Shown here: piece by piece, positions 11,294-15,755 of the stretch
Layout: each line of letters opens with the position of its first letter
How positions within the stretch are numbered: position 1 is the stretch's first letter
Source of the DNA: a virus
Virus record (IMG/VR): IMGVR_UViG_3300013306_000044
Span: 1 to 32,150 of that record
Length of the DNA: 32,150 bases
Reading direction: 5' to 3' (one strand)
The notes under the pieces: generated by a model
What the model saw: the letters and a program-made list of their open reading frames with translations, nothing else
Told to the model about the DNA's origin: nothing
The model's database searches: none
Position numbers and translations under genes: made by a program

Positions 11294-11343
11294 GTAGTCA
11301 GTTTGAAGGCAGCTACGTCCACAGATGCACTCAAACTGGCTAC
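11294..11343. other. attP: Candidate attP site for the serine integrase
   Basis: GTAGTCAGTTTGA (11294-11306) and TCAAACTGGCTAC (11331-11343) are 13-bp inverted arms with one mismatch, set so the whole is 50 bp, the usual size of a large-serine-integrase attP. Six of the twelve inner position pairs are also symmetric, so the dyad extends imperfectly toward a centre at 11318/11319 (sequence ACGTCC around it). It lies directly at the 3' end of the integrase gene and overlaps its stop codon, a typical place for attP. The crossover dinucleotide cannot be fixed by eye. Confidence 0.6.
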
Positions 11344-12740
11344 TCCCAGACCGCATGGACCGTGATGGCCCTCTTGCCGCCGGATGGCCCGTTTTCCCAG
11401 TCGTGGAGCTGGATTTTCGAGACCAGCCGGCTCAGAATCTCCCGTTTGACCCTCGCCGGCATTGCCGCCCAGGATTCCAGCAGCTGGGGCACGATCTGGG
11501 CCGGCTTCACGGTCGAGTTGACCTCCAGGAGCCTCAAACGCGCTTCCGCTGTCGATTTTTCCTCGGCCAGCTTGGCTTTCAGGCGCTCGTAGACCTCCGT
11601 GGAGACCTCGCCGTCGAGGTATTTGACCGTCAGGGTGTCGATCCGGGTCTGGTTTTTGGACAGATCGGAGCGCAACTGCCCCGCCTTGCGCTCCGTGCCG
11701 GAGGCCTTGGGAGGCTCGACGGCGGCGGCTTTGGAGTTGATTTCCGCCGCGATATGGCTCAACCATGCTAAAACGGCCTTCTCGACGTAGGGCGCCGACA
11801 CCGTGGTGGCCGTGTGGCTGCCCTTCTGCTGCGCCTTGGTGCAGACGTAGCGCATGTAGCGCACCCCGTTGGCCTTCTGGACCGTGGAGCCGCCCATGCT
11901 GCCTCCGCAGTGGCACCGCAGGAGCCCGGAGTAGGCGTAGTCGGAGGCCTCGGCGCGGGTCCGCGTGCTCCGGGAGTCACGGCGGGCGCGGTACTGCAGC
12001 CACTCGACCTCGGAGATGACCGCCTCGTGGGCGCCCCGGATAAGCTCGCCCTTGCTCCAGACGTACCCGGCGCCGAAGCCCCGGTCCAGAATCCTCCTCA
12101 GTGTGCCCAGGCCCCAGCCGGCTTCCGGCTCGAAGCCCTCGGAGACCGCGTAGGCTGCCAGCTCCTTGAACGTTGCCCCGGCAGTGAAGCGAAGGTAGAG
12201 CTCGCGCAGGACAGGGGCGCTGGCCTCGTCAGGGACATATCCGCCGGCCTTGGTGTAGGCGTAGCCGAAGCGCGGCAGCCCGTGGTGGGGCAGCCCGTTG
12301 CGCAGCCGGCGGGCGTGCGTCTCCCTCCAGGTGTCCCCGATCCTCTCCGACTCGAAGGCGGCGAACTCGGTGAGCATCCCGCGCGCGAGCCGTCCGGTGG
12401 CGGTGGACACGTCGATGGCCTCGGTGGCGCTCTCGATCCGCCCGCCGGCTGTCTCCACGCGGTCAGCGGCCACGGCCCAGTCGAGCCGGGAGCGACTGAG
12501 GCGGCTCCACTTCCAGAGCAGGATGACATCGGCCTGCTTGCCCTCCACCAGGTCCATGACGCGCTGGACGCCGGGACGGTTCCAGGTGCGCCCGGAGATG
12601 CCGGGGTCTGCCTCGACGGCCACCACGTCGTAGCCCTGCGAGACGGCATAGGTCCGGCAGGCCTGCTCTTGGAGCTCCAAGGAGATTGACTCCTCCTTGT
12701 AGGTGCTTTGGCGTAAATACAGGGCTGCGCGGGGCTTCAT
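11340..12740 (-). CDS. int: Large serine recombinase/integrase (466 aa)
   Basis: This enzyme integrates the phage at attB and, with a directionality factor, excises it. The resolvase domain comes first: YLRQS with catalytic Ser12, DPGISG (45-50), WSRLSRSRLD (78-87) with the conserved arginines, and FESER (129-133). The recombinase domain follows (LPHHGLPRFGY, 150-160), then a zinc ribbon with CHC (276-278) and Cys300, then a coiled-coil C-terminal region (about 340-420). Length is normal for the family. ATG 12740 has no ribosome site, but TAGAAT lies exactly six bases upstream, predicting a leaderless mRNA. It is transcribed against the early operon; its last codon and stop are inside the putative attP. 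No excisionase is recognised. Confidence 0.93.
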   Translation of the reverse strand: MKPRAALYLRQSTYKEESISLELQEQACRTYAVSQGYDVVAVEADPGISGRTWNRPGVQRVMDLVEGKQADVILLWKWSRLSRSRLDWAVAADRVETAGGRIESATEAIDVSTATGRLARGMLTEFAAFESERIGDTWRETHARRLRNGLPHHGLPRFGYAYTKAGGYVPDEASAPVLRELYLRFTAGATFKELAAYAVSEGFEPEAGWGLGTLRRILDRGFGAGYVWSKGELIRGAHEAVISEVEWLQYRARRDSRSTRTRAEASDYAYSGLLRCHCGGSMGGSTVQKANGVRYMRYVCTKAQQKGSHTATTVSAPYVEKAVLAWLSHIAAEINSKAAAVEPPKASGTERKAGQLRSDLSKNQTRIDTLTVKYLDGEVSTEVYERLKAKLAEEKSTAEARLRLLEVNSTVKPAQIVPQLLESWAAMPARVKREILSRLVSKIQLHDWENGPSGGKRAITVHAVWE

Positions 12741-12752: not shown

Positions 12753-12803
12753 AATCCGGCGTCAAGAGGGTCTTGCCCTTTATTTTGGTCTGGTGTAGGT
12801 TTG

Positions 12804-12837: not shown

Positions 12838-12933
12838 ATGGCGAAGACCAAAGAGCAGGCCACCCAGGAGGCTGCCGAAGTCTTCGCACACTGGCTCTCG
12901 ACTCCGACCGAGGAGGGCCGGCAAGCGGCCTAG
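12838..12933 (+). CDS. Micro-ORF (31 aa)
   Basis: ATG 12838 follows GGAGGAGAGCAAG, one of the best ribosome sites in the window. The frame ends with TAG at 12931-12933. The product is a short helix-forming peptide (KEQATQEAAEVFAHWLSTP) with no known relative. It lies between the divergent integrase start and the structured RNA locus, and would be the first element of the RNA transcript. It could be a real small protein or a translated leader. Confidence 0.5.
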   Translation: MAKTKEQATQEAAEVFAHWLSTPTEEGRQAA

Positions 12934-12941
12934 ACAGAATT

Positions 12942-13084
12942 GGCTGATTGTGAAAGATCAGCCGCAAGCAGTACCCGGGGTGACCGATCAAAAGGAGCTC
13001 CGGGGAAAGTCCACCGAAATTGTGAAACCCCGGCAAACCGAAGGTCGAGGCGAGTGCCCTAGTCGAGAAGGGGCTAGGTGGATG
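12942..13084 (+). ncRNA. Structured leader of the RNA locus
   Basis: No gene fits here. A 7-bp hairpin GGCTGAT/ATCAGCC (12942-12963) follows the micro-ORF stop. CCGGGG (13000-13005) can pair with CCCCGG (13028-13033). CCTAG (13058-13062) can pair with CTAGG (13074-13078), ending just before the tRNA-like body. It contains the repeated word GTCGAG (around 13045 and 13063). It probably forms part of the same transcript as the tRNA-like elements. Confidence 0.4.
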
Positions 13085-13153
13085 GGGGCCGTAGCTCAAT
13101 GGCAGAGCAAAGGGATGATCCCTTGGTTGTGGATTCGACTTCCACCGGCCCCA
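13085..13153 (+). tRNA. tRNA-like body with contracted anticodon arm (69 nt)
   Basis: The acceptor GGGGCCG (13085-13091) pairs perfectly with CGGCCCC (13146-13152); discriminator A13153; CCA not encoded. TA at positions 8-9; D-arm GCTC/GAGC with AATGGCA loop containing the GG pair; T-arm GTGGA/TCCAC with canonical loop TTCGACT. The anticodon arm is abnormal: AAGGG/CCCTT (13110-13124) closes a five-base loop ATGAT. Forcing a seven-base loop gives GATGATC (anticodon TGA) but needs A at position 33, an A-G mismatch and a missing position 26. The isotype is therefore not assigned. The body is otherwise fully tRNA-like, so recognition by tRNA enzymes is plausible. Confidence 0.65.
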
Positions 13154-13221
13154 CTAGAGCAGCATACGGGCGGTAACCAATCCGCCGTGATTGGCTCTAG
13201 CCGGAGGGCAGTAACCTCTGG
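13154..13221 (+). ncRNA. Two abutting hairpins between the tRNA-like bodies
   Basis: Hairpin A: CTAGAGC (13154-13160) pairs with GCTCTAG (13194-13200), enclosing GGCGG/CCGCC (13169-13173 with 13182-13186) and an 8-nt loop TAACCAAT. Hairpin B: CCGGAGG (13201-13207) pairs with CCTCTGG (13215-13221) around the 7-nt loop GCAGTAA. A begins at the base after the tRNA discriminator and B begins at the base after A, so the elements are stacked without gaps. Neither is a terminator. Confidence 0.6.
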
Positions 13222-13222
13222 A

Positions 13223-13340
13223 GAGGTGATGTGTCCCAGCGATGGTCGGCTTGGCTGGGTGCGGGAGCCGTAAACTCCCGCAGGCGTCGCACTGGCCCGT
13301 AAAGCCAGGAGGCGCAGTGGTTCAAATCCACCACACCTCA
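13223..13340 (+). tRNA. Oversized class-II tRNA-like cloverleaf (118 nt)
   Basis: GAGGTG, bulged A, TG (13223-13231) pairs with CACACCTC (13332-13339); discriminator A13340. The D-arm is CCCAGC/GCTGGG (13235-13259) with a 13-nt loop. The anticodon-type arm GCGGGAG/CTCCCGC has loop CCGTAAA (13268-13274), nominally GUA for Tyr but with C at position 33. The variable arm GCGTC-CTGGC/GCCAG-GGCGC (13284-13315) also ends in a CCGTAAA loop (13297-13303). The T-arm is GTGG/CCAC with canonical loop TTCAAAT. The 8+4 acceptor/T stacking, six-pair D stem and long variable arm recall selenocysteine-type or allo-tRNAs, but the anticodon does not. It could be a tyrosine tRNA relative or a mimic. Confidence 0.5.
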
Positions 13341-13396
13341 CGGGTTCCCATAACCCCCCATGAGAAGGACCGCAGGCCTATTCACCCTGCACAGCG

Positions 13397-13438
13397 AGGC
13401 CCCAGATGACTTCCACCATCTGGGGCCTTCCTGTTTTC
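13397..13438 (+). terminator. Terminator of the RNA locus
   Basis: AGGCCCCAGATG (13397-13408) pairs perfectly with CATCTGGGGCCT (13417-13428), followed by TCCTGTTTT. It ends transcription of the micro-ORF/tRNA-like unit before the packaging genes. Confidence 0.85.
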
Positions 13439-13481: not shown

Positions 13482-13490
13482 GCTATTGAC

Positions 13491-14036
13491 ATGGCCGATG
13501 ATCTGAATACAATGGACGCCTTCACGGCGAAAGTTGTCCCCCTGCGCACCAAGGGCTACTCCTTCGAGGAGATAGCCATGAAGACGGGCGCCGAGGTCGA
13601 AGAAGTGGTGACCGTCTGGAAAGAGTTCATCACCTCGCGCACGATCATGCCGCCCGAGGAGCAGGCAGTCCTCCAGGAACTGCGCCTGGAAGTGCTGCTC
13701 ACGCAGGTCAATGACCGCCTGCGCTTTGCCGACCGCGCCGAGGACTACGAGCTGGTCATCAAGCTGCTGCAGGAAATCGCCAAGCTGCAGGGCATCAACA
13801 AGGAGAACAAGCGCAACGCCGAGGACAAGCTGCTGGAGCTGACCCAAGCCCAGACGCAGCTCATCCTCCGGGCCATCTTCGCCATCTCCGCAGGAATGCA
13901 GGCGCACATCGAGCAGGTGCTGACCAGCAGCAAGACCATCAAGCAAATCCAGGGCCAGCTCACCGGCCCCGTCCTCCAAGAGCTGTTCACCACCGAGGCG
14001 CAGCGCGCCCTGACTGAGGGAGTAGAAGAAGCATGA
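13491..14036 (+). CDS. terS: Small terminase-like protein (181 aa)
   Basis: By position immediately before the large subunit and by make-up this is the DNA-recognition subunit of the packaging motor. Residues about 17-46 (LRTKGYSFEEIAMKTGAEVE) form a helix-turn-helix suited to pac/cos binding. The rest is long helices (ELRLEVLLTQVNDRLRFADR; LLELTQAQTQLILRAI) suited to forming the oligomeric ring. ATG 13491 is chosen because it follows the -10 and starts the HTH region properly. The next gene overlaps by ATGA. Small subunits diverge strongly, so the call rests on context and fold pattern. Confidence 0.7.
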   Translation: MADDLNTMDAFTAKVVPLRTKGYSFEEIAMKTGAEVEEVVTVWKEFITSRTIMPPEEQAVLQELRLEVLLTQVNDRLRFADRAEDYELVIKLLQEIAKLQGINKENKRNAEDKLLELTQAQTQLILRAIFAISAGMQAHIEQVLTSSKTIKQIQGQLTGPVLQELFTTEAQRALTEGVEEA

Positions 14037-14275
14037 GCGCCAAAGAGACCATCTACACCAAAGACGTGACCGACGTTCTGGACCTGTTCTATGACCGGGA
14101 CGGGCAGGAGCCTGACTGGGCCGCAGTGAAGACCCGGCTGTTCTCGGCCACGGACTCCCACTACACCCTCATCGTCAACCTGCTGAAGGCCGTCTGGGTG
14201 ATCTACGAGGACAGGGCCACATGGGAGACCGTGCTGGCAAAGCTGGAGCAGGAACGAGCAGATGAGCATTCTTGA
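14033..14275 (+). CDS. Small protein between the terminase subunits (80 aa)
   Basis: The function is unknown. ATG 14033 overlaps the small terminase stop, and the large terminase start at 14262 lies within its last codons. It is an acidic, mostly helical protein (VTDVLDLFYDRDG; LIVNLLKAVWVIYEDRATWE). Tight coupling on both sides suggests a part in packaging or an accessory for terminase assembly. Confidence 0.65.
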   Translation: MSAKETIYTKDVTDVLDLFYDRDGQEPDWAAVKTRLFSATDSHYTLIVNLLKAVWVIYEDRATWETVLAKLEQERADEHS

Positions 14276-15755
14276 TGCGATGAGGGCTGCCAGCGCCGAG
14301 CTGGAGCAGGCCGCCCTCAACGAGCGCTACAAGACCGACATCGCCCTCTGGGCCAAGGACAAGCTCGGCTACACGCTCTGGGCCAAGCAGATCGAGATTG
14401 CCCAGGCGCTGCTGAAGTACAAGCGCGTGGCGGTCAAGTCCGGCCACGGCGTCGGCAAGTCCTTTGTCGCGTCCATCATCGTGGCGTGGTGGGTGGACAC
14501 CCGCAAGGACTTGGACTCCATCGCGGTCACCACGGCGCCCACGCAGCCCCAGCTGGGCATCATCTGGGAGTACCTGCGCGACCACCGGATGAAGGGCAAG
14601 CTCCCGGGCGACATCTCCCTCGATGATGAGTGGAAGTCCGAGCTGCGGGTCAAGCGCGCCTTCGGGCGCAAGCCCTCGAACACCAACGAGCACGCCTTCC
14701 AGGGCATCCACCGCCGGCAGGGTGTGCTCGCGGTCCTCGATGAGTCCTGCGGTATCCCCGAGACCATCTTCACCGCCGTCTCGGCCATCACCACAGGCAA
14801 GTACGATGCCGCGCTGGCCATCGGCAACCCCGATGACGTGAACACCCCGTTCGGCGCCATCTGGAAGACCAACAACGACACCTGGCACAAAATCACGATC
14901 AACTCCTACGACTCCCCCAACGTCACGGGCGAGGACTTCCCGGAGGAGGCCTCCGGCGGTCTGGTGACGCTGCAGTGGATCGAGGACCGCAAGAAGGAGT
15001 GGGGCGAGGACTCCCCGCGCTTCCGCTCCAAGGTGCTGGGCGAGTTCTCGATGGACGGCACCAACGCGCTGTTCCCCGAGGGCACCCTGACCATGGGCCG
15101 CGTGACAGAGCTGGTCCACCGGCAGGACTCCAAGCCGCGCCTCGGCGTGGACGTGGCCCGCATGGGCGGCGACTACACGGTGGTCTACATCTACCAGGAC
15201 GGCGTGCTCCGATTCCTGGACAAGTGGAACAAGACCACCCTGACCGAGACCGCCGCGCGCGTGGTGACCTTGGCCCACGACAACTTTGTGGATGAGGTCA
15301 GGATCGACGGCGTGGGCATCGGTGCCGGCGTCTACGAGATGGTGACCAACAAGTCCGAGGGCCGCTTCGAGACCATCGGCATCATCGGCAACGCGGCCTC
15401 GGATGACAACGACAAATGGCTGAACCGCCGCGCCCAGATGTACGACACCCTGCGCGAGGACATGCTGAATGGCCGGGTGGATATTGATGAGGCGGACACC
15501 GAACTCATCAAGGAACTGGGCGATCTGGAATACCACTTCAAGAACACCCGGAGCGCCCTGCAGGTGGCGTCGAAAGAGGAAATCCGGGCCAAGACCGGCA
15601 AATCCCCTGACTACGCCGACGCCGCCGCCTATGCCCAGATGAACTTGGGCTTCGATCCGAAAAATGCCGTCCACAAGCTGGAGGCCGGCACGCAATTCGA
15701 GACCATGCCCGAGGATTTCCTGTTCGCCTACGAAACCAGCATTAGTCCTTACTGA
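14262..15755 (+). CDS. terL: Terminase large subunit (497 aa)
   Basis: This is the ATPase-nuclease that pumps DNA into the prohead and cuts it. Walker A is SGHGVGKS (residues 60-67) and Walker B is VLAVLDE (155-161) with catalytic Glu161. The ATP-coupling segment follows (AIGNPDD). The RNase H-like nuclease domain starts at LGVDVAR (294-300) with Asp297 and continues with Asp304 (GGDYTVVY), Asp349 (RIDGVG) and Asp450/Asp453 (KSPDYADA). Length is normal. It overlaps the small gene upstream by 14 bases. A long open frame on the other strand (14175-15821) is a composition artefact. Confidence 0.95.
   Translation: MSILDAMRAASAELEQAALNERYKTDIALWAKDKLGYTLWAKQIEIAQALLKYKRVAVKSGHGVGKSFVASIIVAWWVDTRKDLDSIAVTTAPTQPQLGIIWEYLRDHRMKGKLPGDISLDDEWKSELRVKRAFGRKPSNTNEHAFQGIHRRQGVLAVLDESCGIPETIFTAVSAITTGKYDAALAIGNPDDVNTPFGAIWKTNNDTWHKITINSYDSPNVTGEDFPEEASGGLVTLQWIEDRKKEWGEDSPRFRSKVLGEFSMDGTNALFPEGTLTMGRVTELVHRQDSKPRLGVDVARMGGDYTVVYIYQDGVLRFLDKWNKTTLTETAARVVTLAHDNFVDEVRIDGVGIGAGVYEMVTNKSEGRFETIGIIGNAASDDNDKWLNRRAQMYDTLREDMLNGRVDIDEADTELIKELGDLEYHFKNTRSALQVASKEEIRAKTGKSPDYADAAAYAQMNLGFDPKNAVHKLEAGTQFETMPEDFLFAYETSISPY

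Follow-up and report, generated by a model that had tools for sequence, protein, structure and literature searches.

Soil metatranscriptomes, from forest and peat, have yielded polycistrons of irregular allo-tRNA-like molecules that show 8/4 stacks and five-stem junctions (Mukai et al. 2017, reviewed in PMC7609411), and E. coli synthetases did not charge these irregular soil molecules (PMC7609411). Phage tRNAs are known to counter tRNA-targeting defenses (van den Berg 2023, PMC10264068; PMC11555353), and anticodon-loop mutations that avoid nucleases are frequent among them (PMC10264068). In the best-studied case, where tRNA-Tyr counters retron-Eco7, rescue depends on the anticodon and stem-loops being intact, pointing to replacement and not a decoy (PMC11555353). 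A pseudo-tRNA lies inside GOLLD RNA in a Mycobacterium strain (PMC6582537).

The locus described here, in a 32,150-nucleotide stretch of viral DNA from IMG/VR (the window), most closely resembles the soil polycistrons. As the review describes them, the likeness lies in irregular tRNA clusters, 8/4 acceptor/T stacks, extra-stem junctions and soil origin; however, the review ties the soil polycistrons to no phage, whereas the phage arrays occupy a defined locus with a putative promoter, a leader and exchangeable slots, and many of their cassettes are 7/5 and one-armed. With the defense-evading phage tRNAs the arrays share both a phage-borne tRNA locus and altered anticodon loops, but those tRNAs are meant to decode and most array cassettes cannot. 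GOLLD is comparable as a large phage RNA within tRNA clusters; neither the window nor its relatives hold a GOLLD match at the gathering threshold, and GOLLD and other ornate RNAs of Rfam were rejected for want of a match. No description of such arrays in phages was found in the literature searched, which is weak evidence of absence.

Attention was drawn to the locus by a 118-nt tRNA-like cloverleaf noticed in a sequence-only reading. This element is not isolated: it is the second of two exchangeable tRNA-like cassettes in a single unit, which runs from a putative promoter through a 31-codon micro-ORF, a structured leader, cassette 1, spacer hairpins and cassette 2 to a putative terminator. The features of the region are as follows.

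11,340–12,740, minus strand: gene for an integrase-like large serine recombinase, pointing away from the array (Pfam hits: Resolvase at 2.9e-30, Zn_ribbon_recom and Recombinase).
12,773–12,801, plus strand: promoter-like TTGCCC-N17-TAGGTT; TTGMNN-N16-18-TANNYT followed by CACA precedes the array in 11 relatives.
12,838–12,933, plus strand: 31-codon micro-ORF MAKTKEQATQEAAEVFAHWLSTPTEEGRQAA; a similar micro-ORF with an AA-stop end precedes the leader in 12 relatives among those listed.
12,942–12,963, plus strand: predicted leader hairpin GGCTGATT..GATCAGCC, from sequence and folds.
12,972–13,084, plus strand: structured leader, identified by covariation, with an internal loop GTGACCGAT..AGGA and a hairpin GCCCTA..GGGGC (13,056–13,074).
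13,085–13,153, plus strand: cassette 1, a tRNA-like whose acceptor, D and T arms are canonical and whose 6-bp anticodon-type arm is closed by the triloop TGA (Rfam tRNA, 56.3 bits; fold).
13,154–13,200, plus strand: spacer hairpin CTAGAGC..GGCTCTAG, common to many arrays.
13,201–13,221, plus strand: predicted spacer hairpin CCGGAGG-GCAGTAA-CCTCTGG, also in relatives.
13,223–13,340, plus strand: cassette 2, the 118-nt five-arm tRNA-like element (fold z −3.8; a homologue occupies slot 1 in one relative).
13,342–13,356, plus strand: tail hairpin GGGTTCCCATAACCC, present in relatives too.
13,396–13,429, plus strand: candidate intrinsic terminator, from a terminator scan (13-pair stem, then a T-rich tail).
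14,262–15,755, plus strand: terminase large subunit gene, used for phage placement (43% identity to Arthrobacter phage terminases).

Given the divergent recombinase upstream of the array, the phage may be temperate. The promoter-like sequence scores under the threshold of the consensus scan. A separate, strong sigma-70-like match (TTGACA-16-TACAAT, 13,486–13,513) overlaps the beginning of the gene for a DNA-binding protein, immediately ahead of the terminase. In most arrays a micro-ORF of 26–34 codons and the form MA..KEQAIQEAA...WLS/T...AA-stop stands ahead of the leader. The leader itself covaries: 94.4% of cells are paired over 18 pairs, five of which show double changes, the covariation score was reached by 0 of 500 shuffles, and slide controls all collapse. 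In one relative (L002), cassette 1 differs by a single base, a G-C to G-U change in the triloop arm that keeps the pair.

For the 118-nt element, the predicted five-arm tRNA-like fold with its 8/4 acceptor/T stack is supported. All five arms appear in both the minimum free-energy and the centroid structures, and the minimum-energy fold (−57.9 kcal/mol, z −3.8; 0 of 200 dinucleotide shuffles equally stable) is the cloverleaf originally drawn and no competing one. The sizes proposed for the acceptor (8 bp; 13,223–13,228 and 13,230–13,231, with A13229 bulged), the D stem (6 bp; 13,235–13,240/13,254–13,259) and the T stem (4 bp, loop TTCAAAT) stand, while the anticodon-type stem (13,260–13,267/13,275–13,282) has 8 bp and not 7, and the variable arm does have 10 pairs, split 5+5 by an internal loop. 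The letters bear out the same heptamer, CCGTAAA, in the anticodon-type loop (13,268–13,274) and the variable-arm loop (13,297–13,303), the only two copies in the window, as well as the C at position 33: the anticodon-type loop has seven nucleotides and C33 in place of U33. Under a plain base-composition model a heptamer would recur among about nine loops with a chance of about 0.3%; the true chance is higher because TAA also ends several neighboring frame loops. CCGTAAA is one base off CUGUAAA, the loop usually found in bacterial tRNA-Tyr.

Covariance searches with the Rfam tRNA and tRNA-Sec models reached neither gathering threshold. Ordinary tRNA identity was rejected on finding no RF00005 match at gathering, and ARAGORN made no call on the element. 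The best clan match by cmscan was tRNA-Sec (RF01852), where 22.1 bits against a gathering threshold of 47 leads to rejection of membership. The likeness to tRNA-Sec and allo-tRNAs that had been suggested survives in the 8/4 stack and 6-bp D stem. With tRNA-Sec the element has in common the long acceptor/T stack, the 6-bp D stem and the long variable arm, but tRNA-Sec has a UCA anticodon and the CCGTAAA loop contains no UCA; with allo-tRNAs it shares a 12-bp acceptor branch of the 8/4 or 9/3 kind, here 8 (bulged) + 4 bp. The T loop, TTCAAAT, and A73 are those of a canonical tRNA, on a 4-bp T stem. As to SerRS or AlaRS identity, the element combines a long variable arm with discriminator A and a G-C pair at 3:70.

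The only distinct homologue of the element is carried, in slot 1, by a phage (L004) whose terminase large subunit is 96% identical to the window's. The two elements are 77% identical, whereas their flanks are 91–94% identical, and the homologue keeps five arms. Compensatory change in related phages had been proposed as a check on the fold, and the changes in shared stems all keep pairing: of 33 shared pairs, 29 are unchanged, one differs on both sides (A-T to G-C) and three on one side only. In simulation, every pair survives five random substitutions in 0.05% of trials, rising to 1.8% under a strong transition bias. The element's own covariation is thin because the 118-nt family consists of only two distinct sequences; a wider pattern search returned 35 stretches, of which only the two known types are related, the others inspected resembling chance and many being ordinary tRNAs. 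Like the window's element, the homologue falls short of the tRNA-Sec model (19.6 bits against 47). Its terminal loops are different: the anticodon-type arm ends in CGC-TTA-GCG, the variable arm ends in a 4-nt loop, and CCGTAAA is absent. The idea of a conserved two-headed anticodon display is thus rejected, as the display is missing from the sole distinct homologue, and the repeated heptamer is lineage-specific.

The unit or close variants of it occur in 16 related viral arrays. A group of metagenomic phages has terminases 71–100% identical to the window's, and in three further phages the figure is 52–53%. Between arrays, cassettes change slot and sequence while flanks stay 91–94% identical. 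Ordinary tRNAs are a minority across the 16 arrays (Trp in L004; Gln and an Asn-like in L061; normal tRNAs in L063–L065, the relatives with 52% terminases), and the cassettes are otherwise irregular. Among 38 extracted cassettes, most retain the tRNA top half of acceptor, T arm and discriminator A: all seven acceptor pairs form in 20, all five T-stem pairs in 22 (fixed register), and the discriminator is A in 33. The anticodon half takes many forms, including triloops, tetraloops, 8–11-nt loops, a single hairpin (60-nt molecules) and long extra arms (112-, 118- and 142-nt); the anticodon-type loops are mostly other than 7 nt with U33, and only about four cassettes could present a normal anticodon. 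Some cassettes fold poorly. Compensatory changes, the T stem included, are seen in the family of 60-nt one-armed cassettes; 96.1% of its cells are paired, and 3 of 500 shuffles reach its covariation score.

In the larger related records searched, tRNA matches above threshold fall at this locus only. A spacer-hairpin search recovered mostly known arrays and a 142-nt tRNA-like (CGGCTGATAG...CAAGCCGA), with several extra arms, upstream of position 10,353 in L114, a phage with 53% terminase identity; two further hits, L115 and L116, looked chance-like on inspection. Five other relatives (L015–L018 and L066) have no tRNA-likes; in the corresponding place upstream of their terminase genes lies another conserved stretch that looks structured (GGTGGTGAACAGGCCGGACGTACCGCC...). 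In bacterial genomes, the leader pattern search found none and terminase relatives gave none confirmed; direct DNA search of phage records with the window region gave no match.

Cultured relatives were reached through the leader, which matches Arthrobacter phage Bridgette (E 5e-10); direct DNA search of phage records reached Bridgette from one array only (L019). At one slot, ten phages of A. globiformis B-2979, Bridgette among them, carry different irregular cassettes, mostly unannotated; the cultured Arthrobacter globiformis phages with irregular cassettes are Bridgettevirus. The T stem is CAGAG/CTCTG in RootBeer and CAGGG/CCCTG in GlobiWarming, a compensatory change. Since phages of a single host strain differ here, the cassettes are poorly explained as codon supply to different hosts. 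The nearest Rfam family to the Bridgette cassette is mascRNA/menRNA (RF01684), at 21.5 bits and below the gathering threshold of 42.5; both are compact, with an acceptor, a T arm and one hairpin, but mascRNA/menRNA is eukaryotic and the likeness is one of shape only. The annotated tRNA-Gly of Eileen and ChuckDuck has an anticodon-type loop of 9 nt. In Bauer (L111, 681–758), a phage of the same host, a tRNA-His is annotated as "likely contains intron," and an extended hairpin with a GAAA cap can be drawn for its anticodon arm. Annotated genes 69 and 70 of Bridgette (L101, 1501–1883) overlap the leader and the tRNA-like, and both may be spurious ORFs.

The reading we favor, at a probability of roughly 0.4, places the 118-nt element, as one cassette, in a phage array of irregular tRNA mimics, most of them non-decoding, that are matured by the host and most likely serve as decoys. 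Promoter and terminator would yield a single transcript that includes the micro-ORF and structured leader. The acceptor/T half of a tRNA is the part recognized by RNase P, RNase Z, the CCA-adding enzyme and EF-Tu. Host maturation is proposed because the conserved half of the cassettes is the half those enzymes read; RNase P, RNase Z and the CCA-adding enzyme would probably excise and finish each one. The products would resemble tRNA to acceptor/T binders, with no normal decoding expected from an anticodon half that is reduced, enlarged or without U33. As most cassettes have no usable anticodon, they would probably imitate or decoy host tRNAs, occupying or surviving factors of the host or of rival phages that attack tRNA. 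Such an arms race would account for the quick exchange of cassettes and for their hypervariable lower half, and the 118-nt cassette, showing a near-tRNA-Tyr loop twice, is perhaps a lineage-specific lure. A decoy role would fit both the rapid turnover and the reported anti-defense phage tRNAs; we offer that step as a hypothesis because the published examples rely on decoding, and ordinary tRNAs in some arrays count against it. A bolder version, which we regard as doubtful, makes the locus an RNA counter-defense bank comparable to RNA anti-CRISPRs, in which a fixed top half would pass host maturation while the lower halves, evolving freely, would serve as baits or blocks, each for a different protein of the host or a rival phage that acts on tRNA.

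The constant top half beneath which hairpins and loops are hypervariable, and the giant inserted arms of the 112-, 118- and 142-nt elements, could also point to tRNA-scaffolded small RNAs, with the acceptor/T half kept for processing and stability and the variable hairpins as the working part, pairing with mRNA or binding a ligand or protein; some families, however, keep central stems and change loops only, and we consider this rather unlikely. We think it unlikely, too, that the cassettes are functionless tRNA genes, decaying and shuffled by recombination. Cassettes that move between slots, the poor folding of some and the ordinary tRNAs held at the same place in relatives would all fit such debris, but the shared-stem changes between the window and its homologue break no pair, the one-armed families show compensatory changes, the leader covaries, and a unit with putative promoter and terminator persists across many phages.

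The cassettes might instead be charged by host synthetases and used off the ribosome, or titrate a synthetase or EF-Tu, without decoding. Conservation of the acceptor/T half and discriminator A would suit such a role, as would G1-C72, A73, the long variable arm and GUA in the 118-nt cassette, which are cues for bacterial TyrRS. Against it, GUA is missing from the homologue in L004, no tRNA-related partner enzyme was found among the window proteins tested, and irregular soil allo-tRNAs went uncharged by E. coli synthetases (PMC7609411); we judge it improbable. Replacement tRNAs that still decode, such as a Tyr tRNA resistant to anticodon nucleases, would explain CCGTAAA within a 7-nt loop and would have precedent in phage tRNAs often mutated in the anticodon loop to evade nucleases (PMC10264068). 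C33, the 118-nt length, a loop that is not conserved in L004, and the triloops, tetraloops or 8–11-nt loops of most cassettes make this very improbable.

The 118-nt cassette belongs to a fast-changing set of tRNA look-alikes in soil phages, cultured Arthrobacter phages among them. Standard tRNA finders and annotators overlook or mislabel most of these cassettes, as with Bridgette gp69/70 and the "tRNA-Gly" of Eileen and ChuckDuck. The cultured phages have a single host strain in common and carry different cassettes, which makes the decoy, scaffold and debris hypotheses directly testable. Together, the soil actinophages and the cultured phages give RNAs resembling the irregular soil tRNA polycistrons a concrete genomic home.
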